From NCBI GenBank assembly GCA_032768795.1, contig CP136490.1, positions 5,890,001 to 5,954,000 of the forward strand: a stretch of 64,000 nucleotides of DNA. The letters run 5' to 3'. This document shows, one piece after another, positions 27,087-46,836 of this stretch. The DNA comes from Tremella fuciformis (lineage: Eukaryota; Basidiomycota; Tremellomycetes; Tremellales; Tremellaceae). The notes under the pieces were generated by a model that saw only the letters and a program-made list of their open reading frames with translations, had not been told where the DNA came from and searched no databases. How positions within the stretch are numbered: the first letter of the stretch is position 1; the number at the start of each line of letters is the position of its first letter. Both the position numbers and the translations under genes were made by a program.

Positions 27087-27092
27087 GATTCG
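27087..27092 (+). repeat. target-site duplication, left (GATTCG)
   Basis: GATTCG immediately precedes the left terminal inverted repeat and is repeated exactly at 46831-46836 after the right one. Confidence 0.85.
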
Positions 27093-27113
27093 TATGGAAC
27101 GCCAAACCGGACA
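27093..27113 (+). repeat. left terminal inverted repeat
   Basis: Begins TATGGAACGCCAAACC and ends GGACA. It matches the inverse of 46810-46830 at 18 of 21 positions. Confidence 0.85.
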
Positions 27114-27124
27114 TTACTTTTCTA

Positions 27125-27189
27125 CATCGTTTTCTTACCACCGTTTTCTGCCCATCGCATAAGCATACATCGCTCATTACCCGTCGTTC
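27125..27189 (+). repeat. left subterminal motif array (5 x CATCGTTY-like)
   Basis: Five copies start at 27125, 27139, 27153, 27168 and 27182, spaced 14-15 bp: CATCGTTT, CACCGTTT, CATCGCAT, CATCGCTC, CGTCGTTC. The inverse motif recurs five times at the right end. Likely transposase-binding sites (inference). Confidence 0.6.
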
Positions 27190-27303
27190 TCGGTCGCGAG
27201 CCCTGACTTGACATACCCTGCGGGAAAGGCTGGCGGCCCGTTGTTGATTCCCACACTAACCACCATTCTATCTTGATCTTGACATTGTCTCTCATCATTC
27301 ACC

Positions 27304-29559
27304 ATGGACCGATTCAAGAACCAAGACGAAGCTCTTCGATTCTGGGTACAGCAGTCGGGCATATCGTCGGGGCCGCTGCTGATGCTGTAGCGTTGGCAGA
27401 AGGGCTACGCTCAGGACGTCTTTGCAAACGAGGAGGAGGCGCTCGAGTTCTTTGTGGGTGTTCACACCTGCAACTACAAGCGGCTCACTGCAGCGGTGGA
27501 CGGATGCTCCAGCATCGAAAGAGTCTCCCGCTGTCATATCTGTGACATCCTCTCCGTTGGAGACCACCTCAACATCAGCCACGCCGTCCTTCTCGCAGAT
27601 CAAGTCTCTCCCTCATTCAACATTGCCCTCCATCCAGTCAATCGCCTCTTCCTCTTTCAATTCTTCCAATCTCAGTCTCAGGACGCCCAAGAATCAGCGG
27701 GACTCTGGATTGACAACTGCCTCGGCTATCATTCCCCATTTCAACGTCACCACGCAGGCGGTCTCGCAACACGGTAAAGCGTCGGCAATCACAGGCCAAG
27801 CTGCCGCCCGTTTTGGTGAATCATCTGCCTCAGTCGGTCAACATTTTATGAATGCGATGCTTGAATCCAGGAGCCATGCGGAGAAGGGGAAGGGGAAAAG
27901 GAGCAGGGACCGGTCGTTTAAGCGCGGGAAGGCCATCAAGTTTGGAACAGACAAGAGGGTAGGTCGCCTTATATCACCTGATCAGGTCTGCTTCAGGTCA
28001 GACCTGGTTGAATTCGGACTGACGGGCCTAGGTTTTATACATTCCCAGCCAGTTCCTCACTTCCTCCGATATCGTCATCAACAAAAGAGTGGCAGCGCTT
28101 CTCTGCAGCATGTGCGAGCAGAGGCAGTTTGTGGCTTATCCGTCAATCAGCGAGGGCGCTCCCCCAATGGAGATCCAAACGGAAATCGTCAATGCGTTCT
28201 TGGCGAAGAACCCGCCAATTGACTTGCGGAAATACTTCTTCACGTACGTCTTCTCACTCTTCCATGAGCTTACAGGAGCAGGTGGTGTTCAGTCGACGAA
28301 TACTCGCATCGTTTGAAGGCACAACTGAACTCAGCATTGGCCGACGGGAACGCTCTATCGTCATGGTATCTGCGAGGCACTCAAGCATACATTGTTCCGT
28401 CTTCCGACGTCGTTCTTGATGATACCTTCGAATCAGAGTTCCTATCACAATTTCATTCCAAGCAACTCTCCAAACGGGTACGGAATTGGCCCGACACGTC
28501 CGACGATGAACTCGACGTTCAAGAAGAACATGCAGAGTGCCCAAAATGTCAGAGAAAGATGACCGCAACCAAGCTGACTGGCCATCAACCTCTCTGCAGC
28601 GGGAGAGTACGTCTTCGACCTTGTTGCGGTGGCAAGGCTAAGTCTCTTAGGCCCCTCGGATTGCTCGACGTCTGGGGACGACATCACCACCTCCTGGGAA
28701 ACGCAAGGCAACTGGAGCAAAGGCCCGTAGAAAGCCGCCAGTGAAGAAGAGCAGTGTATCCTTGAAAGATGTCTCTCTCTCGCCTGACTCCGCGACCGAC
28801 ATACAGCACATCGAAGGCACTGCAGTGCACCACGGCCCTTCTCAGGAAGCTCAGGCAGACCCAGCAAGTCCTCCTTCAACGGCTGAAGGCAACAGGTCAA
28901 GCCCAATGCCCGCTCCCGTTCTCTCTTCCGAGACCTTCGTGAATTCGTACGATGACTCTTGGAGGCTACGCTTGGCCTATCCTAGTCCGCCAATGTTTGG
29001 GCAGTCATCGCCTGAGACGCCGTTACCGTCAGTGCCCCCGCCCGTTCTGTCCCTACTTCCCGAGGACATCTTCGACATGACTCGTTACGGCACGGTGTCA
29101 CCTCCTAGCAGGGTTCCAGAGGTTTCCTCGGTCGTACGTGAACGATTAGCCCATGCTGTCGATAGCAATTGGGCGAACATATCTCCACCTGTGCGACAGG
29201 CCCCGTTATCTGTGGTTCAGGATGCACTTCAGCCCAGCTCGGACACCAATGAGGTGGCGTCCAACACAGAAGCGGCACATGAGAGCGCGGACCCCATGGC
29301 CTTGTTGCCACCGATATCTACCCCTCTGACCGTCCATAGAGCTCAAGGCGCGACAAGTGCGGAGCAACGACAGATCCTGCGGCTTCAACACGATGCTCCT
29401 CAACGGAAAGCGAGAGCTCCTGATCCCGGTAGGCGCCCACCCTCCCTGAGGCCGAGGACCCGATCAACCAGGACCATGGACCAAGGCGGTGAGACCGGTC
29501 CTGCTCGGATTCCTGGTCCTGTGTCGTCAGCTGGTAGAAGGACGACCAAGCTTGCTTGA
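27304..29559 (+). CDS. transposon gene A: unrecognised Cys-containing basic protein, 672 aa
   Basis: No family recognised. Six exons: 27304-27345, 27391-27555, 27599-27958, 28032-28243, 28276-28606, 28651-29559. The ATG sits in ACCATGG. The N-terminus has ALRFWRWQKGYAQDVFA then EEEALEFFVGVHTC; a Ser/Thr-rich stretch and a strongly basic KGKGKRSRDRSFKRGK tract (possible nuclear signal) follow. The middle has VAALLCSMCEQ and a charged region; residues ~345-365 contain CPKCQRKMTATKLTGHQPLC, a likely C2HC zinc site. The C-terminal ~300 residues are Pro/Ser-rich and probably disordered. Intron 3 (73 bp) contains the palindromic repeat; intron 4 is only 32 nt. It starts ~210 bp from the left terminus and is convergent with gene B. 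Confidence 0.7.
27975..27998 (+). repeat. palindromic repeat copy 1 (inside gene A intron 3)
   Basis: Palindrome ACCTGATCAGGT at 27976-27987, followed by TTCAGGTC. Same unit and orientation as the copy in the gene B intron. Confidence 0.65.
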
Positions 29560-29619
29560 TCCTGCAATATACTGGAGCATGTAGTATGATTCCTGAATAT
29601 GCGACCATCCATTTCGAGC

Positions 29620-29670
29620 TGACCTGATGTTGACCTGATCAGGTCAAGATCAGGTCATCTTCAGGTCAGC
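29620..29670 (+). repeat. palindromic repeat copy 2 (between genes A and B)
   Basis: A compound copy with the palindrome at 29633-29644 flanked by several GACCTGAT / ATCAGGTC half-sites. It lies in the 3' region shared by the convergent genes A and B. Confidence 0.65.
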
Positions 29671-29806
29671 TCGTACTGCCCTGCTGGCTCACAAGCCCTG
29701 GCTTTTTGAGTTGCGACCAGATGGCTCCCGCAGACTGGAGCCCAAGATATTAAAGTTGCAGACATCTATGTATTATCACGCTAACAACATACAACTGATC
29801 TAATGC

Positions 29807-31857
29807 TCAACGTCTCCTACGAACAGGCGGCAAGGGCAGCGGGACCTCACTTGGTGTCTCGCTCTCCTCTGATGGGTCGTTAATGGACCCAGCTACACCA
29901 GCAGACTCAGCAGAGGGTTCACGCTGCGAGCGCCGGCGACGGCTAGATCGAGGCGTGGCTAGGGTGGGACTGCTGAATGGCGGCAGCGGTGCGTCGGGGT
30001 TGAGAGAGGACGATAGACGCTCTAGAACTGCCCGCTCGCCAGCGCCTTCTACTGTCGGCACCATCTCCTCCCTTGCCTTTACTGATGCAAGAAGATCGCG
30101 TACACGATCTGCGAAACGTTGACGCTCCGCTTGCACCCCTTCGATGAACGCCTATCCTTGATCAGCAGTGTTCTAGAAGTATCACCTGATCAGGTCTGAT
30201 TCAGGTCGACTGATCACCTTGCGCAACTCCTCTTCAGCTTTCTCCGACGTGTTGGAGCAGTCCGTGGCCCTTATCCCGCACTCAGCACACTTCATCTTCC
30301 CTGTTCCATTAGTCGGTGACCGTGCAGCTCCTCGTGCCACTTACTTGATCCAACACACCCCGCTGCGAATACAAAGGGTGTCTTGCCCTTCCTCAGCTCA
30401 AAAGCTCGGCGCCGACACTGTTCACACAGATGAGACTGGTCCGTGGCGCGCAGTGCCACCTCCCTTGCGTTGAACTGTGAACGCAGGATTGTAAGCTGCC
30501 ACATTAGATCCATCTTAGAGACCTCATGCCTGGACTGTGACTCGCCCGTCTCTGCAGTCCCTTCTGCTTCTCAGTCGGACCAGCCGCCTGGACGATCCAC
30601 TCTCCCGAGGCCGGATTTTGAAGAACCTCGCCACCTAAAGCCATGACGCCCTCAAAGAAGGATAAGCTCCGCCAATTGGCATGCCATTGCCCAACTGTCC
30701 ACCGCGCCCGGCGCGGTGTTTGGGTATGTGGAGGTAGCGGGACCTCATATGGCGAGAAACCGACGAGAGCATCTCCCTTGTCCCGTATGTTCGGCAAGTG
30801 GGACGATATCTGATGCTGGGGGGTCTCAAGCTCGATGGGGGGGTCGAGGTGTGGCACAGGAGGGTCGTTTGGGGCCGGGAGACTCTGGGGTGGGAGGATC
30901 TCAGGCCCTGGCGATGTCTGCATAGGTGCTGGACTCAGAGAGGCTGGCAGACTATGAGAAAGCTCTGCCTCATCGTCGAGGCCGCCTCCCAACGCCTCCT
31001 GGTATTTAGCAACGTCATGGGCAATAGGCTGAAGTATCACTTGAAGACGTCGGGCTATCTGAGCATCGCTGGTCACCCGCTGGCTCTCGTGGGCAGCTCT
31101 CATGGCGCGCGATGCCATTGTCGAAGGCCCTGGACCAGCACCTTGGGCGTCCTCTATGGACTCAAACATCGCTGCGGGCTCATGCTGTTGAAGCAGACAG
31201 GGGGAACTCGGCTCCTGGTTGGCGATCTCTTCGCCCATCACCTCATCTTCGTCCATGCCAATTGACTGCCTCAGAACAGCTGTGGTTGGCTGACGTTGAC
31301 CTCTAGGCGGGTGTCTCCTCTTCGAACGGAGATCTAGAACCCGGCCCTTCCCTCTCATGACAACAGGTGCGACAGGCTCTGCCAGAGTTCTTAGCGTTGT
31401 CTTCACGCTGTTGAGAGAGACCGTCGATCCCGAGTCTGATTCCTCGCTCTTGAACGGGCTCACGTCGGTGAAGAGACTCCTGGGCGCCGCTGGTACTGAT
31501 GTCAACGCCGTGAGCGCAGCAGACGGCGCTTGTTTCACGGATACCGGTCGCGGTTGCGGTGTGGGGGATGCCGTAGAAGGCAATCGAATGCCGCTGACCA
31601 CCCTGGGCTTCTTCCCTGCTTCCACAAGCTTGTGCCATTTGCGGGCTCGGTCACCGCTCTTCCCATAAGTCTGCCATGGGTGCACACGCCTTGGTTGCTC
31701 CTGGACAACCAAAGTTGCCACAGACGGGGCCGAAGCAGGAGTGGGGTCTGCGATTTGCTATAGTGCTCAGTATCCACTCTTCTGCCTCTTGCAGCAGCCC
31801 ACCGTGGCTGCAGTCGCTGTGGAGACCTGCGCCCGCGTCCGGGGGCGCTGTGCTCAT
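29807..31857 (-). CDS. transposon gene B: unrecognised Cys-containing protein, 604 aa
   Basis: No family recognised. Five exons: 31803-31857, 30635-31747, 30345-30563, 30218-30300, 29807-30151; total length divisible by three and phases consistent, though the 30564-30637 intron and the start are less certain. Exon 2 has HPWQTYGKSGDRARKWHKL then a long Pro/Ser-rich region, presumably disordered. Exons 3-4 carry a cysteine module, HLCEQCRRRAFEL ... CAECGIRATDC, resembling a zinc-binding fold. The last exon is a charged, probably coiled-coil segment followed by an Arg/Ser-rich tail. Intron 4 (30152-30217) contains the palindromic repeat. Possible partner of gene A or of the transposase. Confidence 0.6.
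30182..30208 (+). repeat. palindromic repeat copy 3 (inside gene B intron 4)
   Basis: Palindrome at 30184-30195 with the TTCAGGTC side arm; nearly identical over ~25 bp to copy 1, though it is in a different gene and intron. Confidence 0.65.
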
Positions 31858-32347
31858 CAGCCAACGCCATACACTTGCTGAGTGAGCAGACCTTCGCTGA
31901 GACGTCTGGTGTAGTGGTTGTGGCTCGCTTGGACATTCTGCTGAGTTTACGGTTGACGATGTAGCAGTATACGAGAGCTCAGGCTGAGAAAGGTGTTAGC
32001 AACTCATGGGCGAGCAAGTTGTGCATATTAGTGGTCATGGCGCACGCACACACCCGCCCTGTCATGTCGTTTGGCGTTTCAAGACCAAGCTTATTATGTT
32101 CCAGAGCACTCAAAGGATGGCTGCTGACATGACGTATGTCACCGAAGCTGACCTGAAGCTGACCTGATCAGGTGAGCTTGCCCTTTGTTCACTCGTACAT
32201 CGATGAGTCATGGTTATACAGGACAAAGCTCGCGCACATGATTCCAAACAATGGTGAGGACCAGGAGGGAATTCTCCTTTACCGAAGCTGACCTGAATAT
32301 GGCCTGATCAGGTGAGGTTGTCCTTTGTCCACTCGTGCATTGGTGAG
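31858..32347. other. gene B upstream / transposase downstream region
   Basis: About 490 bp without a confident gene. It holds two palindromic repeats and a degenerate extra copy of the transposase 3' end. A short frame beginning MSKRATTTTP at 31936 could not be spliced into gene B in phase. Confidence 0.4.
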
Positions 32348-32420
32348 TCATTGTTCTACTAGACAAAGATCGCGCACATGATTCCAAACAATGGCGTGCA
32401 CCAGGAGGTATTGTCCTACT
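32141..32420 (-). repeat. ~140-bp tandem duplication with palindromic repeats 4 and 5
   Basis: Two diverged direct units, ~32141-32280 and ~32281-32420, each starting ACCGAAGCTGACCTGA, each with the palindrome (32162-32173; 32302-32313 with one mismatch) and each encoding a version of the transposase tail (IVWNHVRDLC / IVWNHVRELC). The repeats are in inverse orientation to copies 1 and 3. Confidence 0.7.
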
Positions 32421-32822
32421 CCAATGTCTGTAGAGTGATGGTCTGGTGGACCGGTAAGATCTCTCAGCCATCGTACGAAAGCACCGTTTGTCAGAAGATC
32501 TATCACTGATGCCGGTGCCCCAGCAAGCACGGGTGGGACGACGACCATTGGGTCTTCGGGACGAGGTCCAATCTCAAAGCGTCCGGCGAGATTATCGATA
32601 CCATAGGAAGAGAGATCAATGCGCTCTACCTCTGGAGGCGGTGGAAGAGACTGCAGACTGCCGAACAATATGTCGATTTGCTGACCATGTGCCGATCGTA
32701 TGCCTGTAGGTTCAGCCTCGAGCCATGCCATGATCTGTGAGACATACTGCGAGCGCGAAGTTGGAGTGGCGACCGACCGTTCTCCGTACGCAGACCATGA
32801 TGATTCCACATTGTTTGGAAGA
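32348..32822 (-). pseudogene. transposase gene, 3' part (split by element 1)
   Basis: Continuation of the transposase reading frame after the retrotransposon insertion: 32748-32817 (exon remnant with MWNHHGLRTENGRSPLQL, the conserved block after the integrase core), intron 32704-32747, and last exon 32348-32703. Removing the insertion and one 5-bp duplication keeps the frame exactly, so the gene was intact when hit. Confidence 0.8.
32818..32822 (+). repeat. target-site duplication of element 1, left (GAAGA)
   Basis: GAAGA immediately outside the left LTR; repeated at 45341-45345. Confidence 0.9.
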
Positions 32823-33384
32823 TGTCACGCTCGAAGGGGTAGCCCAAGGTAAAGGGCACGAGGGGGTCTAGTCTCTGGCTCGTAAAGCAAGGGGACTGAG
32901 GGATCGAGGACAAGAGTGCTGGGTTCAGACCAGCTGTGTGACTTTTGTGACGGGACACAAGAGATCCATTGCTGAAGAAACTATCTTGGCCGGAAAGTGG
33001 CCTCCTTATATAGACAAGAGGGCTATGTACGCCGAAGGGATTTGCCACCCGTTTTGCCACCCATTCCATGAGAAAAGTTTTCCTACTGCCGATATTTCTC
33101 GAGTGCAAGCGATTCTCCTCGCTGCAGATCTGTCTATAATTACTGGGAGTGGAAAGGTGGCTGAAGGCCGCCGAGTAGGATCACCGGAAAAAGTACTGAC
33201 TTCAGGAAAGATCACCGATAAAAGTATTGACTTCAGGGAAGATCACCGACAAAAGTACTGACTTAAATCGGCGATGTACCAGAAGAGGTAATGTTTGAGC
33301 AGTTCGGTGGAAAAAGTACTGTGTTTTGTAGGCGAATGGCGTAAAAAGCGGTGACTTGTGTTTGAGATGAGGTCGGTCATGACA
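32823..33384 (-). repeat. element 1 LTR (3' LTR)
   Basis: 562 bp; same length as 44779-45340 and apparently identical. Minus-strand TATATAA at 33006-33012 is a candidate promoter. Contains three 31-bp tandem units at 33179-33264. Confidence 0.92.
33179..33264 (+). repeat. 31-bp tandem repeats in the element 1 LTR
   Basis: GATCACCG starts at 33179, 33210 and 33241, each followed by AAAGTAnTGACTT: an exact 31-bp period, about 2.8 units. Also in the other LTR (from ~45135). Confidence 0.75.
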
Positions 33385-33396
33385 GGAGCTCCCCCT

Positions 33397-36300
33397 CTAA
33401 GGGCGAAGTCCTCTGAGCCGGTTTGATCTGGACTTAGATCTTTTGTCGAGTGCTGTAGTGCGCTTTGAGTTTGTTGAACTGGAAGGGAAATGGTGGTTTG
33501 GGTCCTGAGCATGTTGTCGATGGAATTTTTGATAGGCGGTGGTGTCGTGGACGTTTTCCCATGGTTCCCATGAGTTGTGGGCGCTTGAGTAGTCTTTCCA
33601 GCTGACAAGGTAATCGTAACCGTTATCTGAGCTGATTCGAGAGTCAAGGATTCTGTCGATGATGTATTCTTCTTGTCCATTGACTTCAATGCGTGGTGGT
33701 GGATCTTGTGGTTGCTGAGGGAGTCCATGGCGCATTGGTTCGAGAAGGTTGACGTGGAAGACTGGGTGTATGTTCATTGATGGCGGGAGGTCCAATTTGA
33801 ATGCGAGTGGAGAGGATGTAGCCTCAATGATCTTGAACGGTCCGAGCATCCTTTGGTCGAGCTTGAGCGAGGGTCGAAGTGTTTGTATGTTCCTTCGATT
33901 CAGGAAGACTTGATCTCCTACTTTGAAGAGTGGTTGGTCTTTGGCATTGATCTCCTTGATTTTTCGGTTGTAGAACTTGGTGTAATGCTCTTGGGCGGTC
34001 TTGATATTGTTGGAGAGCTGTTCGTGCAAGGAGCGTAATTTTTCGAGGTGTGTCTGTGCTGCGGGGACGGTTGATGTTGGCGGAGTTGTTGGATCATTTG
34101 GATGATACCCGTAGTTGGCTTCAAAAGGAGTGAACTTGGTTGACGAGTGGACTGAGTTGTTGTAGCTGTATTCTGCCAAGTCCAAAAGTGAGGACCAGTT
34201 GGCTTGGTCGTAGTCGCAGAATGATCGAAGGTAATGTTCCAGAACTTGATTGACTCGTTCTGTTTGTCCATCGGATTGTGGGTGAAAGGCTGTCGAGAAG
34301 TTTGGTGTGATACCAAGGCCTTTGACAAATGATCTCCAGAATTGCGAGTTGAAGATTGATCCGCGGTCTGAGACAATGTCGTGTGGAAGTCCATGAAGTC
34401 TCCAGATGTTTTGTCGGAACATTGTTGCTAAGTTGGGCGCGTCAAAGCCATCTTCTTTGAATGGGACAAAGTGGGCTTGTTTGGTGAAGCGGTCAACAAA
34501 AACCATGATTGAGTCGTAACCTTTTGATACCGGGAGTTTGACAATAGCGTCCATGGAAATTGAGTGCCAAGGTTTGCTGGGTACCGGAAGCGGTTGAAGA
34601 GGTCCGTAGGGTTTGTGTCGAGGTATTTTATTCCGTGCGCATGTGTGACATCCGTCCACATAGGTATTGGTAAATTGTCGCATGCCAGGAAAGTAGTAGT
34701 GTCGAGCTAGAAGTTGGAATGTCTTCTGTTGTCCAAAGTGTCCTGCGGTAGGGGTGTTGTGACACTGGTGCAGTAGGTCGATTTTGAGATCCTGATTGTT
34801 TGGGACGTAGACCCTTTGTTGATATCGGATAATGTTCTTGTCGAGGGTGAAATCTTTCAATTTGTCTTGTAATTCCATGGGTATTGGTCGATTTGTATTG
34901 CGCAGATTAGGCAGTAGCTCTTGTAGGATTGGATCCTCAGGCTGGAGTTGCTCTATTCTGGCCATGATGTCGGAAGTTGTCGAGTTATCAGAGTTGCTGT
35001 GTAAAGCACCAATGATGAATTGTCCGGGTTTGAGGAGTGTGTGTGGAGGTGCTTCTGCAGCTCTACTCCCTCCTTGAAGGTCTGACCTCCTGGTCAGGGC
35101 ATCTGGTTTGCCCATCTTTTCTCCAGGTCGGTAGTGTATCTTGAAATCGAAGTTGGCTAAGAGTTCTGCCCAACGAGCTTGTCGTCTGTTGAGCACCTTG
35201 GATGTCGTGAAATATTCGAGGTTCTTGTGGTCGGTGTAGACTGTGATTTCTTTTGCTCCTTCTAGGTATGGCCGCCAGTGTTTGAATGCTTCCACAATTG
35301 CAAGCATTTCCTTGTCGTAGATCTCGTAGTTGAGTTCGGCCGGTTGGAGTTTTCGAGAGTAGTATGCAATTGGGTGAAGTTGCTTCCCATCTATGTCGGA
35401 ATGTGAGAGGACACCTGCGATAGCAAAGTCTGAGGCGTCTGTCTCCATGGTGATTGGCTTTCCAGGTTGAAAGTGTTGAAGTATCGGAGCACTGGTGAAA
35501 GAGTGCTTGAGTGTATCAAAGGCGGATTGTTGCTTGTCTCCCCACACAAATTCGACTCCCTTGCGTAGGAGGTGTGTGAGCGGTGATGTGACCTTGGAGT
35601 ATGCTTTGATGAAGCGTCGATAGAAATTTGCAAAGCCAAGGAAGACTTGAACATCGTGTACCGATTTGGGTGGTGGCCAGTTTGTGACAGCTTCAACTTT
35701 GTGAGGGTCCATTCGGATTCCTTTGTCGGAGACAAGGTAACCAAGGAAATCAACCTCGTGCTTGAAGAAGGTGCACTTTTCTGCTTTTGCCCAAAGGTGG
35801 TGTTCTTGTAGTCGTTCCAAGACTTGCTTGACATGCGTGATGTGGTCGTCCTTTGATTTGCTGAAGATGAGGATGTCGTCCAGGTAGACAATGACAAAGA
35901 CATCCAAAAAGTCTCTGAGGACATCGTTGATGAGGTTCTGGAATGATGCGGGCGCATTTGTAAGCCCAAAAGGCATCACAAGGTATTCGTAGTGTCCATA
36001 GCGGGTGCGGAATGCCGTCTTCCATTCATCGCCTTTGGCAATGCGGACAAGGTTGTATGCGGCACGTAAGTCGATCTTGCTGAACCATGAGGCTCCTTGA
36101 AGGCGATCGAGAGATTCTTGAATTAGCGGGAGCGGATATCGGTTTTTCCGAGTAATGCTATTGAGTTGCCGGTAGTCGACACATAATCTGAGGGATCCGT
36201 CTGGTTTCTTGACAAAGAGGATGGGTGAACCAGCGGGGCTTGAACTTGGTCGTATAAATCCTTTCTTGAGGTTCTCTTTGAGGTATTCGTCCAAGGCTTT

Positions 36301-37148: not shown

Positions 37149-37716
37149 TGTCACGCCTGGGCTCCCTTGGGTAGTGACGAAGGAGGAACGGAGCAAGAAT
37201 GTTGGGGCTGTAACCCAACAAAGTCGTCACTGGCTCGTCGAGCAAGGACACGGACTAGGAGGTTCGACTCCGACGAGGTCGAACTTGACCGAATGGGATC
37301 GGGCTGGGATGAGAGACTGGGACTGGAGGGGAAGTCACTGGGAGATGTGAAACTGATCCATCGCTGGGGCATCTACGAGAGAGTCGCGGGTTTATATATA
37401 CAATAGGCGTTCAGGTGAACGCCACAGGTGTTCGGGTGATCGTTCGGATGAACAGTCAAATACTACTTCTTCTGGAAGGCGTTCATGTGACCAAAGGGGG
37501 TCGGGTGAACGCTGCTTGCGTTCAGGTGAACGTGGCAGGCATGTCGTCCAAGGCTAGGGTTTGTTCGGGTGAATGGGACCTGTGTTCAAGTGAACACTTG
37601 GGTGAACGGTGATGTCATGGGTAGATGTCCCAAGGATGTGGAGACGGAGCGGAGCGAAGATTACTTGAAGTTGAGTCGGAGGTCGGAGCAAAGTCGGAGT
37701 TTGGTCGTTCATGACA
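37149..37716 (-). repeat. element 2 LTR (3' LTR)
   Basis: 568 bp, TGTCA..TGACA ends. TATATA-rich segment at 37391-37400 is a probable promoter. Carries a cluster of GTTCANGTGAAC-type dyads at 37404-37612. Confidence 0.92.
37404..37612 (+). repeat. array of GTTCRNGTGAAC-type imperfect palindromes in the element 2 LTR
   Basis: Eight or nine dispersed copies, e.g. GTTCAGGTGAACG (twice), GTTCGGGTGA, GTTCGGATGAAC, GTTCATGTGA, GTTCAAGTGAAC. Duplicated in the other LTR. Possibly binding sites for a host regulator. Confidence 0.6.
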
Positions 37717-37757
37717 GGAGCTCCCCCTCTAAAGGCGAAGTCCTCTGAGCCTGGAGC

Positions 37758-40700
37758 TCAAGTCTTTTGGTGTGCCGAGTTTGGCGGGAAGTGGTGTCGA
37801 GGGTTGCGGAGATGTTGTCGACGGAATGCTTTGTAGGCCGTGGTGTCGAAGATGTTTTCCCATGGTTCCCATGAATCGTGGGCATCGGAGTAGTCTTTCC
37901 AGTGGACAAGGTAGTCATAACCATTGTCTTCACTGATGCGAGAGTCGATGATCCGGTCGATGATGTATTCTTCTTGACCTAGAATCTCGATTTTGGGCGG
38001 AGGGTCCTGCTGTTGATGTTGATGTCCCGGTCGGACAGGCTCAAGCAGGTTGACATGGAAGACGGGATGGATTGGAAGTGTCGGAGGAAGATCGAGTTTG
38101 AATGCAAGTGGCGAAGATGTTGTGCCAATGATGGTGTAGGGACCCAACATGCGTTGGTCCAACTTGAGAGAAGGTCGGAGCGAAGTGATGTTTCGTCTGT
38201 TGAGGAAGACTGAGTCACCAATTTTGAATGTCGGAGTGGAGTCCGAGTTGGTGATTGCTTTGGCTCGCTTGTTGAAGTGGCGGACATAGCTGGCCTGTGC
38301 CTTCTCGAGATTGGAGTGTAGCTCCTTGTGGATTTTCTCGAGTGATTGGAGGTGCGAAGTTGCCGCTGGAACCAAGGAAGGTGGTGGAGATGCCGGAGAG
38401 AGCGGGTGGTAACCGTAATTTGCTTCGAAGGGACTGTGTTGGGTGGCGGAGTGTGTCGAATTGTTATAGGCAAATTCGGCAATGTCGAGGATTGTTGACC
38501 AATCGTCCTGGTTGTGGTTGCAATAGGTGCGAAGATATGTTTCCAAGACTTGGTTGACTCGTTCGGTCTGGCCGTCGGATTGCGGGTGGAAGGCGGTCGA
38601 GAAGTTTGGTGTGATGCCAAGACCGTTGACAAATGCTCGCCAGAATTGGGAGTTGAAGATCGCTCCTCGGTCGGAGACAATGTCGGAGGGTATGCCGTGA
38701 AGTCGAACAATGTTTTGGCGGAAGAGTGAAGCAAGGTGCGGAGAATCGAATCCTTGTTCTTGATAAGGGACAAAGTGGGCTTGTTTTGTGAATCGGTCAA
38801 CGAAGACCATGATTGAGTCGAAGTTATTCGATTTTGGGAGTTTGACAATGGCGTCCATGGAGATCGACTGCCAAGGTCGGGTCGGAATTGGAAGTGGCTG
38901 GAGTGGTCCATACGGTTTGTGTCGAGGTGTTTTGTTTCGTGCACAGGTATGACAACCGTTGACGTAGGTGTTGACAAATGATCGAAGACCAGGGAAGTAG
39001 AAGTGTCGGGAAGCGAGGTCATAGGTTTTTGCCTGTCCTAGGTGACCTGCAGTCGGAGCATTGTGAACTTGATGAAGAATGTCGAGGCGGAGTTGGTGAT
39101 TATCGGGAATATAGACTAGATTGGCGAAGTGGATAACTCCGTTGTCGATGGAGTATGACGGAAGTTCGGTCGCAATTGAAGTTGGCGGAGTAAGATGGGG
39201 ATTTCCCAGATAGGGTCGGATTTGGCGGAGATGAGGGTCGACAAGTTGAAGTTGGCGGATGCGATCGATGATGGTCGAAGTGATTGTTGAAGATTCTGAA
39301 GTTTGACGTTTGCGGTTGGTGGCTCCAATGACAAGTTGACCTGGTTTCAGGAGAGTGTGTGGCGGTGCTTCAGCAGCTCTACTCCCCCCCTGAAGGTCTT
39401 GACGTCTCGTCAAGGCATCGGGCTTGCCCATTTTGGTGCCAGGCCGGTAGTGAATCTTGAAGTCGAAGTTGGCGAGAAGTTCTGCCCACCGTGCTTGTCG
39501 GCGATTAAGCACTCGAGAGGTGGTGAAGTATTCGAGATTTTTGTGATCGGTGAAAACCGTGATTTCGCTTGATCCTTCGAGGTAGGATCGCCAATGTTTG
39601 AACGCTTCGACGATTGCAAGCATTTCTTTGTCGTATATTTCGTAGTTGAGTTCGGCTGGTTGGAGTTTCCTGGAGTAGAAGGCAATCGGATGAAGGTTGT
39701 TGCAATTGTTGGCAGCTGGATGGGATAGGACACCCGCTATGGCGTAGTCGGAGGCGTCGGTTTCAAGAATGAGAGATTTGCCGGGCTCGAAGTGTTGTAG
39801 GATTGGTGCCGAAGTGAAGGCGGACTTGAGTGATTCAAAAGCTTCGGTTTCCTTCTCTCCCCATTCAAACTTCACTTCCTTTCGGAGGAGTCGGGTGAGC
39901 GGAGCGGTGACCTTTGAATATGACTTGATGAATCGCCGGTAGAAGTTGGCAAAGCCGAGGAAAACTTGAATGTCGTGGACCGAAGTTGGTTTTGGCCAAG
40001 AAGTGACTGCTTCGACTTTGCTTGGGTCCATCCTGATTCCCTTGTCCGAGACAAGATAACCAAGGAAGTCCACTTCGTGTCGGAAGAAGGTGCACTTCTC
40101 TGCCTTTGCCCAGAGTTGATGTTTTCGGAGGCGATCCAGGACTTGTCGGACGTGTCGAACATGATCTTCGCGGGTTTTGCTGAAGATCAAAATGTCGTCC
40201 AGATAGACAATGACGAAGATATCGAGGAAGTCGCGAAGAGTGTCGTTGATAAGATTTTGGAACGATGCCGGGGCATTTGTAAGGCCGAAGGGCATGACCA
40301 AGTATTCGAAGAGGCCGTAGCGTGTGCGGAAAGCGGTTTTCCACTCATCGCCAGGTTTGATCCGGATGAGGTTGTAGGCGGCTCGAAGATCGATTTTGGT
40401 GAACCAGGATGCGCCAGAGAGGCGGTCGAGTGACTCTTGAATGAGCGGGAGTGGGTATCGATTCTTTCGAGTGATCGAGTTGAGTGAGCGGTAGTCGACA
40501 CAGAGTCGGAGGCTGCCGTCGGATTTCTTGACAAAGAGGATCGGAGAGCCAGCTGGGCTGGTGCTGGGTCGGATAAATCCTTTCTTGAGGTTCTCCTTGA
40601 GGTATTCGTCCAGAGCTCGGAGCTCGACTGCAGACAAGGAGTAGATCGGTCCAAATTTTGGTTGGGCGTCCCCTTCCAAAGGGATTGCGTGATCGTATGG

Positions 40701-41720
40701 TCCGTGGTCTGGGAGCTTGTCGGAGTTGGATTTGTTGAAGACGTCGAAGTAGGAGTGAAACTCGGTTGGGATTTGGGTTCGGAGTGAAGCAAGGTCGGGA
40801 ATGGTATTGTCGTCATCGTCGCCTGTCGATGGGGTTGGATCGATGAGACCTGAGACTTGATTGGCAGATGTAATGCCGAAGATGCTAGCGGTTTTGATCG
40901 CTTGGCGGAAGGCTTTCCCGCTGATTAGGGATACCTGAATCGGTCGACTTGATGATTGATCGTAGTGCCGAGTGACTGGATGGGGCGGACTTGAAGCGGA
41001 GTTGCTTGGCAAGTTGCGGACTGGAGTTGTCGAACATGTCGGAGATGTCGAAGATGTGTTTTGCGTACCCGAAGTGTCGATACTTGGCGGGTTGCGGACT
41101 CGGAGAGGCGATGTTGCCTGTGACTGGAATGGCGTATCTGCAGCTTTGCTGGACAGATTACCGGAACTAGGACTGGAATCTCGACCCTCAGGCTTGCCTT
41201 GCCTGATGCACTGTGCCAGACAGTACTGGGAGGAGAAGACGATGGTCTGGCGGGACCAATCGACGACTGGATTGTGCTGGGATAGCCATGGAAGGCCAAG
41301 GATGACTGGATAATCGCCAAGTGAAGTGATGTCGAAGGAAATCACTTCGGAGTGATCAAGAATGGCGAGTCGGACTGGAGTTGTGTGATGGGTGATGGCG
41401 CCGGATTTGATCGGTCGACCATCGATAACTTCGATTGGAACGGCTTGTTCCTTTTGGACTTGTTGAATGTTTGTGGCGGAGAGGAACGACTTGTTGATGA
41501 AGCTGCCGGTAGCTCCAGAGTCGATCATAGCATAGGTGTCGAAGGAGGTGTTGTTGATCGAGAGTGTGATCGGAACACACAGGTGCGGGATAGAGTGGTT
41601 GGAGGTAGTGGACAGAAGCGTTGTAGCCGATATTTGATGACCAGATTGGATTGAACCGGAGGTATGGTGCCCAAGTGTGAGCCCCAGAGGTGGGGGCACA
41701 TCTAGGCCTGGGGCTTGGTG
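37758..41720 (-). CDS. element 2 pol (protease, RT, RNase H, integrase, chromodomain)
   Basis: Continuous frame, about 1,320 codons, read in the -1 frame relative to gag from the slippery site at 41720-41726. Protease AMIDSGATGSFIN; RT MPFGLTNAPASFQ and YLDDILIFS; RNase H ILETDASDYAI and FTDHKNLEYF; integrase finger GHLGQAKTYD..CHTCARNK and core SMDAIVKLP / SDRGAIFNSQFW; chromodomain YLVHWKDYSDAHDSWEPWEN. No disabling mutation seen, so potentially autonomous. Confidence 0.92.
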   Translation of the reverse strand, partial: HQAPGLDVPPPLGLTLGHHTSGSIQSGHQISATTLLSTTSNHSIPHLCVPITLSINNTSFDTYAMIDSGATGSFINKSFLSATNIQQVQKEQAVPIEVIDGRPIKSGAITHHTTPVRLAILDHSEVISFDITSLGDYPVILGLPWLSQHNPVVDWSRQTIVFSSQYCLAQCIRQGKPEGRDSSPSSGNLSSKAADTPFQSQATSPLRVRNPPSIDTSGTQNTSSTSPTCSTTPVRNLPSNSASSPPHPVTRHYDQSSSRPIQVSLISGKAFRQAIKTASIFGITSANQVSGLIDPTPSTGDDDDNTIPDLASLRTQIPTEFHSYFDVFNKSNSDKLPDHGPYDHAIPLEGDAQPKFGPIYSLSAVELRALDEYLKENLKKGFIRPSTSPAGSPILFVKKSDGSLRLCVDYRSLNSITRKNRYPLPLIQESLDRLSGASWFTKIDLRAAYNLIRIKPGDEWKTAFRTRYGLFEYLVMPFGLTNAPASFQNLINDTLRDFLDIFVIVYLDDILIFSKTREDHVRHVRQVLDRLRKHQLWAKAEKCTFFRHEVDFLGYLVSDKGIRMDPSKVEAVTSWPKPTSVHDIQVFLGFANFYRRFIKSYSKVTAPLTRLLRKEVKFEWGEKETEAFESLKSAFTSAPILQHFEPGKSLILETDASDYAIAGVLSHPAANNCNNLHPIAFYSRKLQPAELNYEIYDKEMLAIVEAFKHWRSYLEGSSEITVFTDHKNLEYFTTSRVLNRRQARWAELLANFDFKIHYRPGTKMGKPDALTRRQDLQGGSRAAEAPPHTLLKPGQLVIGATNRKRQTSESSTITSTIIDRIRQLQLVDPHLRQIRPYLGNPHLTPPTSIATELPSYSIDNGVIHFANLVYIPDNHQLRLDILHQVHNAPTAGHLGQAKTYDLASRHFYFPGLRSFVNTYVNGCHTCARNKTPRHKPYGPLQPLPIPTRPWQSISMDAIVKLPKSNNFDSIMVFVDRFTKQAHFVPYQEQGFDSPHLASLFRQNIVRLHGIPSDIVSDRGAIFNSQFWRAFVNGLGITPNFSTAFHPQSDGQTERVNQVLETYLRTYCNHNQDDWSTILDIAEFAYNNSTHSATQHSPFEANYGYHPLSPASPPPSLVPAATSHLQSLEKIHKELHSNLEKAQASYVRHFNKRAKAITNSDSTPTFKIGDSVFLNRRNITSLRPSLKLDQRMLGPYTIIGTTSSPLAFKLDLPPTLPIHPVFHVNLLEPVRPGHQHQQQDPPPKIEILGQEEYIIDRIIDSRISEDNGYDYLVHWKDYSDAHDSWEPWENIFDTTAYKAFRRQHLRNPRHHFPPNSAHQKT

Positions 41721-41726
41721 TTTTTT
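41680..41726 (-). promoter_or_regulatory. element 2 gag-pol -1 frameshift signal
   Basis: On the minus strand the heptamer A-AAA-AAC (41720-41726, in gag frame) is followed after 4 nt by an 8-bp stem AGCCCCAG / CTGGGGCT (41708-41715 with 41680-41687). The gag stop lies in the loop. Pol is in the -1 frame, as this signal predicts. Confidence 0.85.
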
Positions 41727-42727
41727 GCCGGTTCGGAGGTGGATCGTGCGTTGATCGCACTGACTTGAGTAGATCGATTGTTGCCTCGGTTTGGTCGGAT
41801 TGGACATTGGCCTGCGCTGTGACCAGGTTTGCCACAGTAGAGGCAAAGATTGTTCTTGAATCGATGTTCCCTTTCCTGAGGAGTGAGGGGCGTGAATCGT
41901 GGTCGAACAGCATCGATTTCCATTGGAGTTGGAGTGAAGGTCAATGTGTTTTGGGTCGAAGATGTTGGAGTGCGGACGAAGTTGTTGGTCCGTGGCGTTG
42001 GATTGGTGTTGGTGATCCGTGCGTGCGTGGTTCGGATGGCGGAGTTGGTGAATCCTCTTCTTCGCTGGAACAGGAGATCATCCCATTTGATGGCACTGTC
42101 GATCAAGTCGGTGATGGTGTCAAAGCCATTGGGAGTAAGGAGTTTGTCCTTGACATCCTCCTTGAGTCCATCGAAGAAGGAGTGTCGCATTGCTTCGTCA
42201 CCCCAGTGGAGGTGAGCAGCATGGCGCTGGAATTCGGTTGCGTAGTGAGTCGCTGAACCGGTTTGTCGAAGGACCTTGAGTTTTTGGCGAGAGGTTTCGA
42301 TGATGTTTGAGTCGCCAAAGATTTTCTTGAATTCGACCTTGAAGTTGTTCCATTGTTGGACCCACATAGGTTGTTCGCTCTCTGCAAGGAGCAGATGCGG
42401 CATGACCCACTGATAGGCCTGGTCCTTCAATAGGTTCGTGACAAATGCAAGCTTCGCTTTGTCGGTCGAGTAGGTTCGGGGTTGAACAGAGAATACCATG
42501 TCACACTTCAGGATGAACTCCGCTGCCTCATCCTTGCGGCCAGTGAAGGCGGTTGGATGTGAGACTTTGGGCTCCTTGCTGAAGGCAACAGGTTGAGGAG
42601 TGGGGGTGGCCATGACCTGGGCTTGGGTGTTGGTCAAGGCCTGCTCGAGTTGGACGATCCGGGCTTGCATAGCCTCAAGGATGTCGTTGTAGTCTTGAGT
42701 GTTGGTGGGAAGGTCGAGGTCGGACAT
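41702..42727 (-). CDS. element 2 gag
   Basis: 341 aa capsid/nucleocapsid polyprotein. Coiled N-terminus, retrotransposon Gag core (LAFVTNLLKDQAYQWV ... FKKIFGD), and a CCHC knuckle CLYCGKPGHSAGQC near the C-terminus. The last codons overlap the frameshift heptamer and the gag stop is at 41702-41704. Confidence 0.9.
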   Translation of the reverse strand: MSDLDLPTNTQDYNDILEAMQARIVQLEQALTNTQAQVMATPTPQPVAFSKEPKVSHPTAFTGRKDEAAEFILKCDMVFSVQPRTYSTDKAKLAFVTNLLKDQAYQWVMPHLLLAESEQPMWVQQWNNFKVEFKKIFGDSNIIETSRQKLKVLRQTGSATHYATEFQRHAAHLHWGDEAMRHSFFDGLKEDVKDKLLTPNGFDTITDLIDSAIKWDDLLFQRRRGFTNSAIRTTHARITNTNPTPRTNNFVRTPTSSTQNTLTFTPTPMEIDAVRPRFTPLTPQEREHRFKNNLCLYCGKPGHSAGQCPIRPNRGNNRSTQVSAINARSTSEPAKNTKPQA

Positions 42728-42904
42728 GGTGAAGGTGGTCGGATTGTCCTAGAGTATGATCGAAGATGGCGAAGTTTGTCGAAGTGTCCTTGTATATTAT
42801 CGAAGAGGGTGAAGATATGTCGAATTGTCAAAATAAAGAGTGTAGTCAAGTCTATGTAAAGAGCGAAGAAAAACGAGCGAGGACGAAGGGGTAGCGATGG
42901 ATAC

Positions 42905-43472
42905 TGTCACGCCTGGGCTCCCTTGGGTAGTGACGAAGGAGGAACGGAGCAAGAATGTTGGGGCTGTAACCCAACAAAGTCGTCACTGGCTCGTCGAGCA
43001 AGGACACGGACTAGGAGGTTCGACTCCGACGAGGTCGAACTTGACCGAATGGGATCGGGCTGGGATGAGAGACTGGGACTGGAGGGGAAGTCACTGGGAG
43101 ATGTGAAACTGATCCATCGCTGGGGCATCTACGAGAGAGTCGCGGGTTTATATATACAATAGGCGTTCAGGTGAACGCCACAGGTGTTCGGGTGATCGTT
43201 CGGATGAACAGTCAAATACTACTTCTTCTGGAAGGCGTTCATGTGACCAAAGGGGGTCGGGTGAACGCTGCTTGCGTTCAGGTGAACGTGGCAGGCATGT
43301 CGTCCAAGGCTAGGGTTTGTTCGGGTGAATGGGACCTGTGTTCAAGTGAACACTTGGGTGAACGGTGATGTCATGGGTAGATGTCCCAAGGATGTGGAGA
43401 CGGAGCGGAGCGAAGATTACTTGAAGTTGAGTCGGAGGTCGGAGCAAAGTCGGAGTTTGGTCGTTCATGACA
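42905..43472 (-). repeat. element 2 LTR (5' LTR)
   Basis: 568 bp, same length as the other LTR. On the minus strand it is followed by GTATCCATCGC, the presumed primer-binding region; element 1 has GTATCCATTGC in the same place. Confidence 0.92.
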
Positions 43473-43595
43473 TGTTGATGGTAGTATTGTTGACGATAGC
43501 GATGTTGCCGTGATATGTAGACGTTTTTGCTGTACCGTGTTGTGCCCTGTTGAGAGCCCCAGAGGTGGGGACACGCCTAGGCCTGGGGCTGCATG
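43473..43595 (-). pseudogene. element 1 pol, 5' fragment
   Basis: Start of element 1 pol in the -1 frame after its frameshift site, reading PPLGLSTGHNTVQQK and onward until element 2 interrupts it; homologous to the PPLGLTLGHHT segment of element 2. Confidence 0.8.
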
Positions 43596-43601
43596 TTTTT
43601 T
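43555..43601 (-). promoter_or_regulatory. element 1 gag-pol -1 frameshift signal
   Basis: Heptamer A-AAA-AAC at 43595-43601 in gag frame, 4-nt spacer, then stem AGCCCCAG / CTGGGGCT (43583-43590 with 43555-43562). Loop bases differ from element 2 while heptamer and stem are kept. Confidence 0.85.
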
Positions 43602-44605
43602 GCCTTATTGTCGGAGGCAATGACACTGTTGGATGCAGTCGTGGTGGCGCTGACCTGGGCTTTCTGCTGCTGGTTGCGCTGGCCTGTACGGCATTCCCTA
43701 GCCTTGTGACCAGGCTTGCCGCAGTACATGCAGAGGTTTTCCTTGATGCGTCGTTCACGCTCAGCTGGAGTGAGCGGTCCAAAGGTTCTGGCTTGAGTTG
43801 CATCGATTTCCATTGGGGTTGGAGTGAAAGTAGTCGAGGTAGTTGTCCGAGGTGCAAAGGTGTTGGTAGGCCGGATGGAAGGGCTAAAACGAGTTGTCAT
43901 AGTGTTGCTGGGTGCAAAGCGTGTTGCTGGTCGAGGATTGTTGTTGGTACGATGTCGTTGGTAGAGAAGGTCATCGTACTCGATTGCTGCAGTGACCAAA
44001 GCTTCATAATCCTTGAATTTGCCAGGAGCAAGAAGTCGATCCTTGACGTCATCCTTGAGTCCATCAAAGAAGTTTTGCTTCTTGGTCTCGTTGTTCCAGT
44101 GGACATATGCTGCGTGGCGCTGGAACTCTGTGGCATAGAGACTTGCTGAACCGGTTTGTCGGAGGTTGCGGAGCTTGAAGCGGGATGTTTCTGCCATGTT
44201 GGCATCGCCAAAATACTTCTTGAATTCAATTTGGAAGTCGTCCCAGGCATGGAGCCAGGTTGGTTGATCCTCTGCGTCCATGCCAAGGTAAGGTAAGACC
44301 CATCGATAGGCTTCCTCCTTAAGTAGATTGGTTGCAAAAGCGATGCGAGTGACGTCCGTAGAGTAGGTGCGAGGTTGAACAGCAAAGACCATATTGCACT
44401 TAGCCAAGAATTCCAGAGTCTGATCCTTACGGCCACTGAAAGGCGGTGGATGAGAAATCTTCGGTTCCTTGGTATGCTCAGGCCTGCTGGTAGCGGAGTT
44501 GACTTGAAGAGCATTGATCTGAGCTTGAAGTTGAAGAATCATGTCGTGTTGGGCTTGAAGAGCTTGCTCAGGAGTGAGCTGAGTGGTCGTGTTCTCGGAT
44601 TCCAT
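43577..44605 (-). CDS. element 1 gag
   Basis: 342 aa. Gln-rich N-terminus, Gag core (IAFATNLLKEEAYRWV ... FKKYFGDANMAETSRFKLR), CCHC knuckle CMYCGKPGHKAREC. Still intact and next to its own 5' LTR, so gag could be made although pol is cut off by element 2. Confidence 0.9.
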   Translation of the reverse strand: MESENTTTQLTPEQALQAQHDMILQLQAQINALQVNSATSRPEHTKEPKISHPPPFSGRKDQTLEFLAKCNMVFAVQPRTYSTDVTRIAFATNLLKEEAYRWVLPYLGMDAEDQPTWLHAWDDFQIEFKKYFGDANMAETSRFKLRNLRQTGSASLYATEFQRHAAYVHWNNETKKQNFFDGLKDDVKDRLLAPGKFKDYEALVTAAIEYDDLLYQRHRTNNNPRPATRFAPSNTMTTRFSPSIRPTNTFAPRTTTSTTFTPTPMEIDATQARTFGPLTPAERERRIKENLCMYCGKPGHKARECRTGQRNQQQKAQVSATTTASNSVIASDNKAKNMQPQA

Positions 44606-44778
44606 GGTGCAAGAGGTGACCTGTAAGTCAGCTAAGTTCTGAGGATGAATCTGAGGAAGGGATGAAAGTGAAATGGCTTAGGCTAGAGGTAGGCAAGGCA
44701 AAGTAAAGCCAAGCTGGGAACAAGGTGAACCAAAGTAAAGGATCACGAGCAAGGACTAGGGGGGTTGGCAATGGATAC

Positions 44779-45340
44779 TGTCACGCTCGAAGGGGTAGCC
44801 CAAGGTAAAGGGCACGAGGGGGTCTAGTCTCTGGCTCGTAAAGCAAGGGGACTGAGGGATCGAGGACAAGAGTGCTGGGTTCAGACCAGCTGTGTGACTT
44901 TTGTGACGGGACACAAGAGATCCATTGCTGAAGAAACTATCTTGGCCGGAAAGTGGCCTCCTTATATAGACAAGAGGGCTATGTACGCCGAAGGGATTTG
45001 CCACCCGTTTTGCCACCCATTCCATGAGAAAAGTTTTCCTACTGCCGATATTTCTCGAGTGCAAGCGATTCTCCTCGCTGCAGATCTGTCTATAATTACT
45101 GGGAGTGGAAAGGTGGCTGAAGGCCGCCGAGTAGGATCACCGGAAAAAGTACTGACTTCAGGAAAGATCACCGATAAAAGTATTGACTTCAGGGAAGATC
45201 ACCGACAAAAGTACTGACTTAAATCGGCGATGTACCAGAAGAGGTAATGTTTGAGCAGTTCGGTGGAAAAAGTACTGTGTTTTGTAGGCGAATGGCGTAA
45301 AAAGCGGTGACTTGTGTTTGAGATGAGGTCGGTCATGACA
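44779..45340 (-). repeat. element 1 LTR (5' LTR)
   Basis: 562 bp partner of 32823-33384. On the minus strand it is followed by GTATCCATTGCC as the probable primer-binding region. Confidence 0.92.
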
Positions 45341-45345
45341 GAAGA
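45341..45345 (+). repeat. target-site duplication of element 1, right (GAAGA)
   Basis: Exact copy of 32818-32822. Confidence 0.9.
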
Positions 45346-46598
45346 ATGAGAGGTCCGCATTGATCATAGGGAGGTAAACGAAGTGCAAGCACCACATCTG
45401 AATGGGATTGTCGACGTCCAATGCCCCGCCTTGCCCCAGCAGCTCAAACACCTCGCGATATTTGCCAGTGCAATCTGCTTGCAAGTCGACCCACAACCTC
45501 TCGATGCGCTGGTTGTGCGTTGAGCGCCCTTGAATGAAAGAGCCGCGACCCTCACCTGACGTCAAGTCACGTCTGTTCAAGCAGTCAGACCTACCTCTAA
45601 CGACATGCATGAATTCCCTCACGCCAAGGTTTTCTCCTCCATAGTCAGCCCGCACACGACTTGGCACGCCATGCTCCTCTGTCGCCCGGACAAACAGTGC
45701 ATGGACGGTATCCGCGCGGTTGTTGTCTGAAGCGCCCATGTAGGTGATGAGTCTGCTGTAGCCGTCGATGCCACCGTGGATGACGATCTTCCATTTGATG
45801 AGCTTGTGATGCCCGTCGATGTGCCACAACGAGTTGTAGAATGGCACAGAGTAAGCTCGTCGAGTAATGAGCTTGGCAAATCGTCGCTCAATTTCTTCCG
45901 GGAACATGGTCCTAAGTTGAACCCGCAGTCGATCACGACTGATGTATATACCCAAGGCGTTGAGGCCTGCCATGAGCATCTTCTCCCCGAGGTGACGGGA
46001 ACCCCTCTGCCGGATTTGATTGATCATCTGCAGTCAGGAATTGGATGACCAGCGCACATGACATACCTACCGTAGCCAGCTGAGCATCGGAAATCTCGGT
46101 TCGGATGACCTTCTTAATTCCTGCTTCGGCTCTCCGACGACGAAGAGTGCGGGTGCTGCAGCCAAAAGAGAGGGCAATGGTGTCGTCTGTGTAGCCTTCA
46201 ACGTGTAGTTGAAAAAGTAGATTGACGTTGACAACCTGTCGTGGTCGGAAGGTAGCCCGCTCGTACGTCTTTACCTGCAAGACAAGTCTTGAGGTGTCTG
46301 CCAGAGCGGTTTCTAGCTGTTCGAGCGCATTTCTCCTATCTTGACAGGCTACGGCAGTGGCCCACCAGCCCTCGGCATCAATCCCTGGCTCTACCAACCC
46401 AAGAAGGTCAAGAAGTCGCTGTACCGCAATCAGGTGTCCCGGGATGTCGACGGCGGATCGCTGAGCGGTAGGGAGCTCAAGGAAGCTGTCGACGGGTCGT
46501 AGAGCTGCCTGTATGTAGTTTTGCAACTCGTGCCAAGTCGGTGACAGTGCTTCCAGCGGTTGCGGCCTGAAGTGGGCAACTGGCTGGGGCTGGGTCAT
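45341..46598 (-). pseudogene. transposase gene, 5' part (HTH + IS3-like integrase core)
   Basis: Exons 46071-46598, 45595-46027 and 45341-45555; with the 3' part (32348-32817) the gene would encode 533 aa. The N-terminal ~180 residues are helical and end in a helix-turn-helix FGCSTRTLRRRRAEAGI. The integrase core has catalytic Asp in LWHIDGHHKL, Asp in SRVRADYGGEN and Glu in NQRIERLW, the DDE arrangement of the rve-like core domain found in metazoan and fungal IS3-type transposases. It starts ~230 bp inside the right terminus, as expected for the element's own transposase. Now inactivated by element 1, although the frame is otherwise clean. Confidence 0.85.
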
Positions 46599-46685
46599 GT
46601 CGTGAGCGCGTGGAGTGATGAGTAGGAGTCAACACCGGTCAGTCCCTGATGAGAAAGCCGAGCAGCTGCGCGAAACGGCGCGCGG

Positions 46686-46769
46686 GAACGATGCGATTGT
46701 GAACGACGTCAAGGGGAACGATGTCATAATGACTGTCAAAACGATGATGAAAGACTGACCAGAACGATG
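46686..46769 (-). repeat. right subterminal motif array (5 x GAACGATG-like)
   Basis: GAACGATG, GAACGACG, GAACGATG, AAACGATG, GAACGATG starting at 46686, 46701, 46716, 46739 and 46762: spacings 15, 15, 23, 23. Inverse of the left array. Confidence 0.65.
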
Positions 46770-46809
46770 TAGAGAAGACGAGGTGATAAGATCGTCGCTA
46801 AATAACACG

Positions 46810-46830
46810 TGTCCACTTTGGCGTACCATA
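46810..46830 (-). repeat. right terminal inverted repeat
   Basis: On the minus strand begins TATGGTACGCCAAAGT and ends GGACA; pairs with 27093-27113. Confidence 0.85.
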
Positions 46831-46836
46831 GATTCG
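46831..46836 (+). repeat. target-site duplication, right (GATTCG)
   Basis: Exact copy of 27087-27092, directly outside the right inverted repeat. Confidence 0.85.

Follow-up and report, generated by a model that had tools for sequence, protein, structure and literature searches.

A Three-Gene IS3EU-Type DNA Transposon with Internal Palindrome Arrays in Tremella fuciformis

Introduction

DNA transposons of the IS3EU (GingerRoot) type are described as having TA..TA tips and usually 6-bp target-site duplications, and as lacking an HHCC domain (PMC10045372). Further genes have been reported in some of them. In the account of the TET+ IS3EU elements of rust fungi given in PMC12730594, the ends read TAYGG..CCRTA, the duplications are 6 bp long, an alpha-kinase gene lies opposite the transposase and a TET/JBP gene lies between the two. 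Styx, an IS3EU-derived element of Zymoseptoria, is described as a ~7.9-kb element that ends in a 36-bp terminal repeat, makes 6-bp duplications and has four coding sequences, and is modelled there as a two-protein ancestor with two co-opted genes (PMC10853768). In PIF/Harbinger elements, a second, DNA-binding protein is reported to be needed together with the transposase (PMC9710019). Here, we describe an element from the basidiomycete Tremella fuciformis, found in a stretch of 64,000 nt (assembly GCA_032768795.1, contig CP136490.1, positions 5,890,001 to 5,954,000 of the forward strand; hereafter, the window), in which positions 27093–46830 are a complete, recently mobile element of the IS3EU type.

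IS3EU-type transposases occur in fungi and fish, and the literature that we found says little about their second genes. Repbase contains 17 autonomous IS3EU entries. No paper naming both Tremella and IS3EU was found in the open-licence PMC literature. We consider it very probable that the element in the window is a DNA transposon of the IS3EU superfamily with three genes: the transposase, a gene A whose product would be a partner of the transposase, and a gene B whose product would bind arrays of palindromes inside the element.

Results

Ends and Copies of the Element

The element is bounded by terminal inverted repeats, TATGGAACGCCAAACCGGACA on the left and TATGGTACGCCAAAGTGGACA on the right, that match at 18 of 21 positions; the similarity between the printed ends is clear over these 21 bp only. 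An exact GATTCG lies directly outside both ends (starting at 27087 and 46831), and elsewhere in the window, on either strand, the left 21-mer finds a match at no more than 15 of its 21 positions. Coordinates of all features are given in Table 1.

The searched genome comprised 28.14 Mb in 11 contigs, the window being part of contig C1. Searched as DNA against this genome, the left 5.7 kb of the element yielded the window itself and copies on C4 (94%) and C5 (two pieces, 100% when rounded), the remaining matches being internal palindromes. The right 1.46 kb recovered the same three copies plus 15 short stretches in the transposases of relatives. All three copies possess TATGG..CCATA tips and exact 6-bp duplications that differ from copy to copy: GATTCG, GAACCT and AGGCTG. 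The terminal pattern was found without mismatch at six genome sites, which are the six ends of the three copies, and with two mismatches at five more; no short non-autonomous derivatives were seen in this genome search. The imperfect terminal match, with nothing beyond it, might suggest that inverted ends and a GATTCG pair happen to enclose three unrelated genes, but the C4 and C5 copies, which share these ends and have duplications of their own, already refute this reading, and we give it practically no weight.

The C4 copy is 7201 bp long and free of the retroelement that interrupts the window copy. Of ~7180 bases compared between the window and C5 copies, 7 differ, and recent movement is therefore inferred. 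Inside gene B, the C5 copy has a ~5-kb insert with direct terminal repeats, by eye a long terminal repeat (LTR) element. The divergence between window positions 27093–32822 and C4:1181112–1186830 is patchy, at 5–13% per 250 bp up to ~29340, 0–1.2% at 29843–30592 and 2–6% thereafter, a pattern suggestive of gene conversion, or of recombination, among the copies.

Both ends also carry ATCGTT and GTCGTT repeats just inside the termini. The word CATCGTT, picked after the fact as the commonest, occurs five times in the two ends together (211 + 232 = 443 bp) versus 0.04 expected. These subterminal repeats are plausible candidate binding sites of the transposase.

Table 1. Positions of the features of the element and its insertions within the window.
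Feature	Position	Strand	Remark
Left target-site duplication	27087..27092	.	GATTCG
Left terminal inverted repeat	27093..27113	+	18/21 match to right end
Left subterminal repeats	27126..27188	+	ATCGTT at 27126, GTCGTT at 27183
Gene A	27304..29559	+	Six exons, 670 aa, disordered-looking tail
Array 1	27974..28001	.	Intron 3 of gene A
Array 2	29617..29671	.	Between 3' ends of genes A and B
Gene B	29807..31936	-	Approximately five exons and 607 aa; judgement used in placing one intron
Array 3	30180..30207	.	In gene B intron
Array 4	32146..32175	.	Between gene B and transposase 3' end
Array 5	32286..32315	.	Near-match, not exact ACCTGATCAGGT; second copy of tandem duplication with 140-bp step
Transposase gene, 3' part	32348..32822	-	Beyond retrotransposon
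Nested Ty3-type LTR retrotransposon	32823..45340	-	LTRs ~562 bp; target-site duplication GAAGA (5 bp)
Second Ty3 element	~37146-43472		Inside first
Transposase gene, 5' part	45341..46598	-	Holds catalytic D, D, E
Right subterminal repeats	46687..46768	-	ATCGTT/GTCGTT five times, steps of 23, 23, 15 and 15 bp
Right terminal inverted repeat	46810..46830	-	18/21 match to left end
Right target-site duplication	46831..46836	.	GATTCG

Transposase

The transposase (533 aa, spliced from the C5 copy) begins at an ATG (46598) located 232 bp inside the right end. Its frame matched PF24764 rva_4 (E 1.5e-61), a family that we take to correspond to IS3EU. Domain search of the N-terminal frame yielded only weak helix-turn-helix matches (E 0.051 for HTH_23; E 0.086) and no zinc-binding integrase domain (HHCC) before the core. 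The residues D247, D304 and E339 were present in 120 of 120 listed homologues (858 were found), and the gap from D to E was 34 residues in 72 of 121 rows, query included, and 36 residues in 46.

Tremella mesenterica (46% identity) and Tremellales sp. Uapishka_1 (44% and 43%) gave the best protein matches. A quickly built tree had 33 rows, namely 23 of the 120 homologues, picked by name and all fungal or fish, together with eight other transposases of the same genome, the C4 copy and the query. The query joined two Uapishka_1 proteins (SH-aLRT 90) within a tremellomycete group separate from the rows of fish, Tilletia and glomeromycetes; a long-branch Naganishia row fell outside, and seven of the eight other transposases of the genome formed a separate clade.

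These results bear out most of the original prediction, which had been made from the letters of the window. The ~21-bp termini with 18 of 21 matches, the exact GATTCG flanks and the integrase-core transposase starting ~230 bp from one end were all found as it described them, the C4 copy has the ~7.2 kb expected before nesting, and the search for other copies with 6-bp duplications that it proposed was positive. Its reading of a large fungal IS3EU member that had undergone nesting agrees with the TA..TA tips, the 6-bp duplications, the rva_4 match and the relatives with such tips and duplications in the same genome, the nested insertion being a retrotransposon.

A Second Gene in Related Elements

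The transposase core had 36 matches in the genome, read as the three element copies and 20 other loci. The start TATGGCG was present at nine of 12 inspected loci. Both ends were found at three of eight related loci checked, and these three (4098, 4107 and 4070 bp) were flanked by exact 6-bp duplications (GTCACC, CCTGAC and CGCGAC, respectively), as were all three copies of the element itself; four of the other five had a 5' tip alone and one a 3' tip alone.

Two of the related elements, C3a and C1b, were read in detail and contain a second gene, C, convergent to the transposase. Exons of gene C were detected at 12 loci, in every case on the far side of the transposase and convergent to it. Since this arrangement recurs at 12 loci, a second gene is a regular part of the IS3EU elements of this genome. 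The spacing between the two genes was <3 kb at seven loci and 7 to 17 kb at five, where we assume later inserts. Of the 20 other transposase loci, the remaining eight gave no gene C match, and seven of these lie on the small contig C10. This contig (827,785 bp) holds eight of the 20 loci, including several that are short or contain stops, and is perhaps a repeat-rich or accessory chromosome.

Gene A

The original prediction of a spliced gene starting ~210 bp from the other end corresponds to gene A, the ATG of which (27304) lies 211 bp from the left end. The first model of this gene encoded 663 aa; after comparison with gene C, the acceptor of exon 4 at 28052 was replaced by 28031, which moved the exon start from 28053 to 28032 and extended the protein to 670 aa. 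By eye, the protein has a C2HC-like zinc motif, for which Pfam gave sub-cut-off matches to YacG (E 0.045) and DUF7129 (E 0.1).

Gene A is probably a distant, diverged homologue of gene C. A profile comparison of the two (hhalign, single comparison) gave E 1.8e-5 and probability 78, and in tests with three gene C sequences, each with 2000 shuffles, no shuffle reached the score of the alignment. As we read the sequences, introns flank the shared exon on both sides at matching places in the two genes. In a small search, a gene C exon aligned to exon 4 of gene A at E 0.14. Several results weigh against this homology. In the same small search, two matches outside the gene C frame were better (E 0.009 and 0.014); a genome query with gene C gave 24 matches at E ≤ 10, none of which was gene A; and a genome query with gene A (E ≤ 1) listed no gene C locus.

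Pfam returned nothing above cut-off for genes A, B and C, and the structure predicted for exon 4 of gene A alone had a pLDDT of 46.7.

Domain pieces of A and C alone gave one weak NCBIfam match (E 0.078), and the gene C domain profile gave two matches at E 1.7 against the PDB. The 'PWT' start of gene C may recall Myb/SANT-type domains; Pfam matched no Myb domain in gene A or C. An identification of gene A as an alpha-kinase found no support. No name for the A/C family was found in Pfam or in the literature that we found, gene C not having been run against the large protein set. A search of gene A (663-aa model) against 5.8 billion proteins, of a kind that detects only relatives sharing short words, returned none at E ≤ 1.

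Gene B

By eye, the protein of gene B has six cysteines followed by a coil-like stretch, features that have no database support. Residues 380–607 had no match at E ≤ 10 among 5.8 billion proteins in a search that likewise detects only short-word-sharing relatives. On C8, at locus L066, a plus-strand frame with zinc-cluster-like cysteines (by eye) lies ~3 kb beyond an IS3EU transposase; the other strand of the same stretch matches the gene B C-terminus weakly (E 0.84). Judged by these searches, gene B appears particular to the element family formed by the window, C4 and C5 copies.

Between the window and C4 copies, the frames were open over the compared stretches, and dN/dS was 0.097 in the transposase (the 378 of its 533 codons before the retroelement), 0.193 in gene A (662 codons, first model) and 0.274 in gene B (601 codons). 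By these ratios, all three genes show purifying selection between the copies. The gene models were drawn with the C4 alignment in view and so are not fully independent of the comparison. Stops inside some of the genome matches of the transposase, A and B were read as matches running through introns.

It could be argued that genes A and B were captured from the host and are passengers with no part in transposition. Such captures have precedents: two further coding sequences are described as co-opted by the IS3EU element Styx (PMC10853768), and rust IS3EU elements are reported to have captured TET/JBP genes (PMC12730594); moreover, the other IS3EU elements of the genome that were inspected showed no gene B, and direct searches do not join A to C. 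Yet neither gene has a clear copy outside the element: all 16 genome matches of gene B and 15 of 17 of gene A fall within the three copies, the other two being weak (E 0.035 and 0.087). The profile and shuffle tests do join A to C, which is convergent to the transposase at all 12 loci, and both A and B are under purifying selection between element copies. We therefore regard simple capture as unlikely. Being apparently homologous to gene C, gene A looks like an old component of the element. Of the 'two accessory genes' of the original prediction, gene B thus keeps this description as a gene particular to the element, whereas gene A, with its probable homologue at 12 loci, probably does not.

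Palindrome Arrays

The element carries five palindrome arrays, four exact and one near, all in non-coding DNA (Table 1). The palindrome ACCTGATCAGGT occurs four times in the window versus 0.01 expected. In the genome, the exact 12-mer was found 13 times (control 0): four times in each copy, 12 in all, and once elsewhere. It was absent from the 20 other IS3EU transposase loci. Beside the palindromes stand TCAGGTC half-sites, mostly at 11-bp steps and with differing spacers. There are 12 TCAGGTC in positions 27093–32822, none of them within the 4269 bases called coding; the right part of the element has none, and the 44,262 bases outside the element have six. A tandem duplication at 32141–32408 (140-bp step; 128 bp matched, 87%) carries arrays 4 and 5.

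The location of two arrays in introns and of two in the tandem duplication would be in keeping with functionless leftovers of small inserted repeats, or of introns that spread inside the element. Gene C has an intron at the same place without an exact palindrome; the intron therefore probably predates the array, and we discarded an introner origin for the arrays. The half-sites, moreover, mostly hold their 11-bp step though the spacers differ, and array 1, in a tract where the copies have diverged, shows no change in 28 positions between the window and C4 copies versus 41 in the other 200 intron positions (Fisher 0.0035). We find the leftover explanation improbable.

We infer instead that a DNA-binding protein encoded by the element reads the arrays. 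Gene B would be the best candidate, because gene B and the arrays are both particular to this element family; a protein that binds DNA as a dimer is suggested by its cysteines and coil-like stretch. Some observations count against this assignment. The shared restriction to one family is the sole tie between gene B and the arrays, and arrays 2–5 lie in tracts that are near-identical between copies and thus uninformative on constraint. In addition, one exact palindrome, extended to 16 bp, sits elsewhere in the genome, so a host factor could read the sites.

A host activator or silencer, rather than an element protein, is accordingly the main rival reader of the arrays. The 16-mer TGACCTGATCAGGTCA with up to two mismatches was found at 28 genome sites, 15 in the copies and 13 outside them, but the reversed pattern gave six, so about half of the outside sites may be chance. 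The site at C1:965772–965787 (locus L085) is the only exact TGACCTGATCAGGTCA outside the element copies. Binding by a host factor sits less easily with the exact 12-mers, 12 in the element against one outside with a control of 0, and with their absence at all 20 other transposase loci. We regard it as a serious possibility, though short of probable.

Nested Retrotransposons

The outer Ty3 element (~12.5 kb) splits the transposase gene of the window copy. The LTR pairs have no mismatch (0 differences in 563 positions for the outer element and 0 in 571 for the inner Ty3), so both insertions look young.

Discussion

In the working model that we favour, the transposase would bind the terminal and subterminal repeats, excise the element and join it to a target cut with a 6-bp stagger. 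Gene A would be a divergent form of the second protein needed by the IS3EU elements of this genome, its product most likely being a DNA-binding or assembly partner of the transposase, like the Myb-like protein of Harbinger. The most likely role of the gene B product would be to bind, as a dimer, to the palindrome arrays and to control the element's own genes or help to assemble the transposition complex.

By analogy, one may go further and picture a self-regulating transposon, in which a conserved partner of the A/C family acts with a gene B protein that reads the five internal arrays in introns and gene gaps. Phage Mu uses an internal enhancer together with its repressor and transposase. We put this Mu-like picture forward tentatively.

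The genome offers a matched set for such questions: a second gene at 12 loci, a far-diverged apparent version of it in the element described here, and a signal array confined to one family. With this set, one can test if IS3EU transposition requires a second protein, and if a DNA transposon of a eukaryote has a regulator and operators of its own. IS3EU elements with extra genes are already known from the rust TET+ elements and Styx; what is new is a second-gene family that apparently reaches gene A, and palindrome arrays specific to an element.

Compared with the described systems, the element shares with IS3EU/GingerRoot, as characterized in PMC10045372, the TA..TA tips, the 6-bp duplications and a core with no HHCC before it. 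With PIF/Harbinger, the likeness is one of working only, namely a second DNA-binding protein acting with the transposase in the account of PMC9710019. The transposase here is of the rva_4 and not the Harbinger family, and Pfam finds no Myb in A or C. The rust TET+ elements, as presented in PMC12730594, are similar in their tips, their 6-bp duplications, an opposite second gene and a further gene in between. However, those genes encode an alpha-kinase and a TET/JBP dioxygenase, neither of which Pfam found in A or B, and the terminal repeats exceed 30 bp there (PMC12730594) versus 21 bp here. Styx, by its description in PMC10853768, resembles the element in size, 6-bp duplications, a DDD/E transposase of the IS3EU type, an inferred two-protein ancestor with extras and recent activity; it differs in being an ascomycete element with a 36-bp repeat and four coding sequences, versus a 21-bp repeat and three genes here (PMC10853768). 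Compared by description, Styx is the closest known design.

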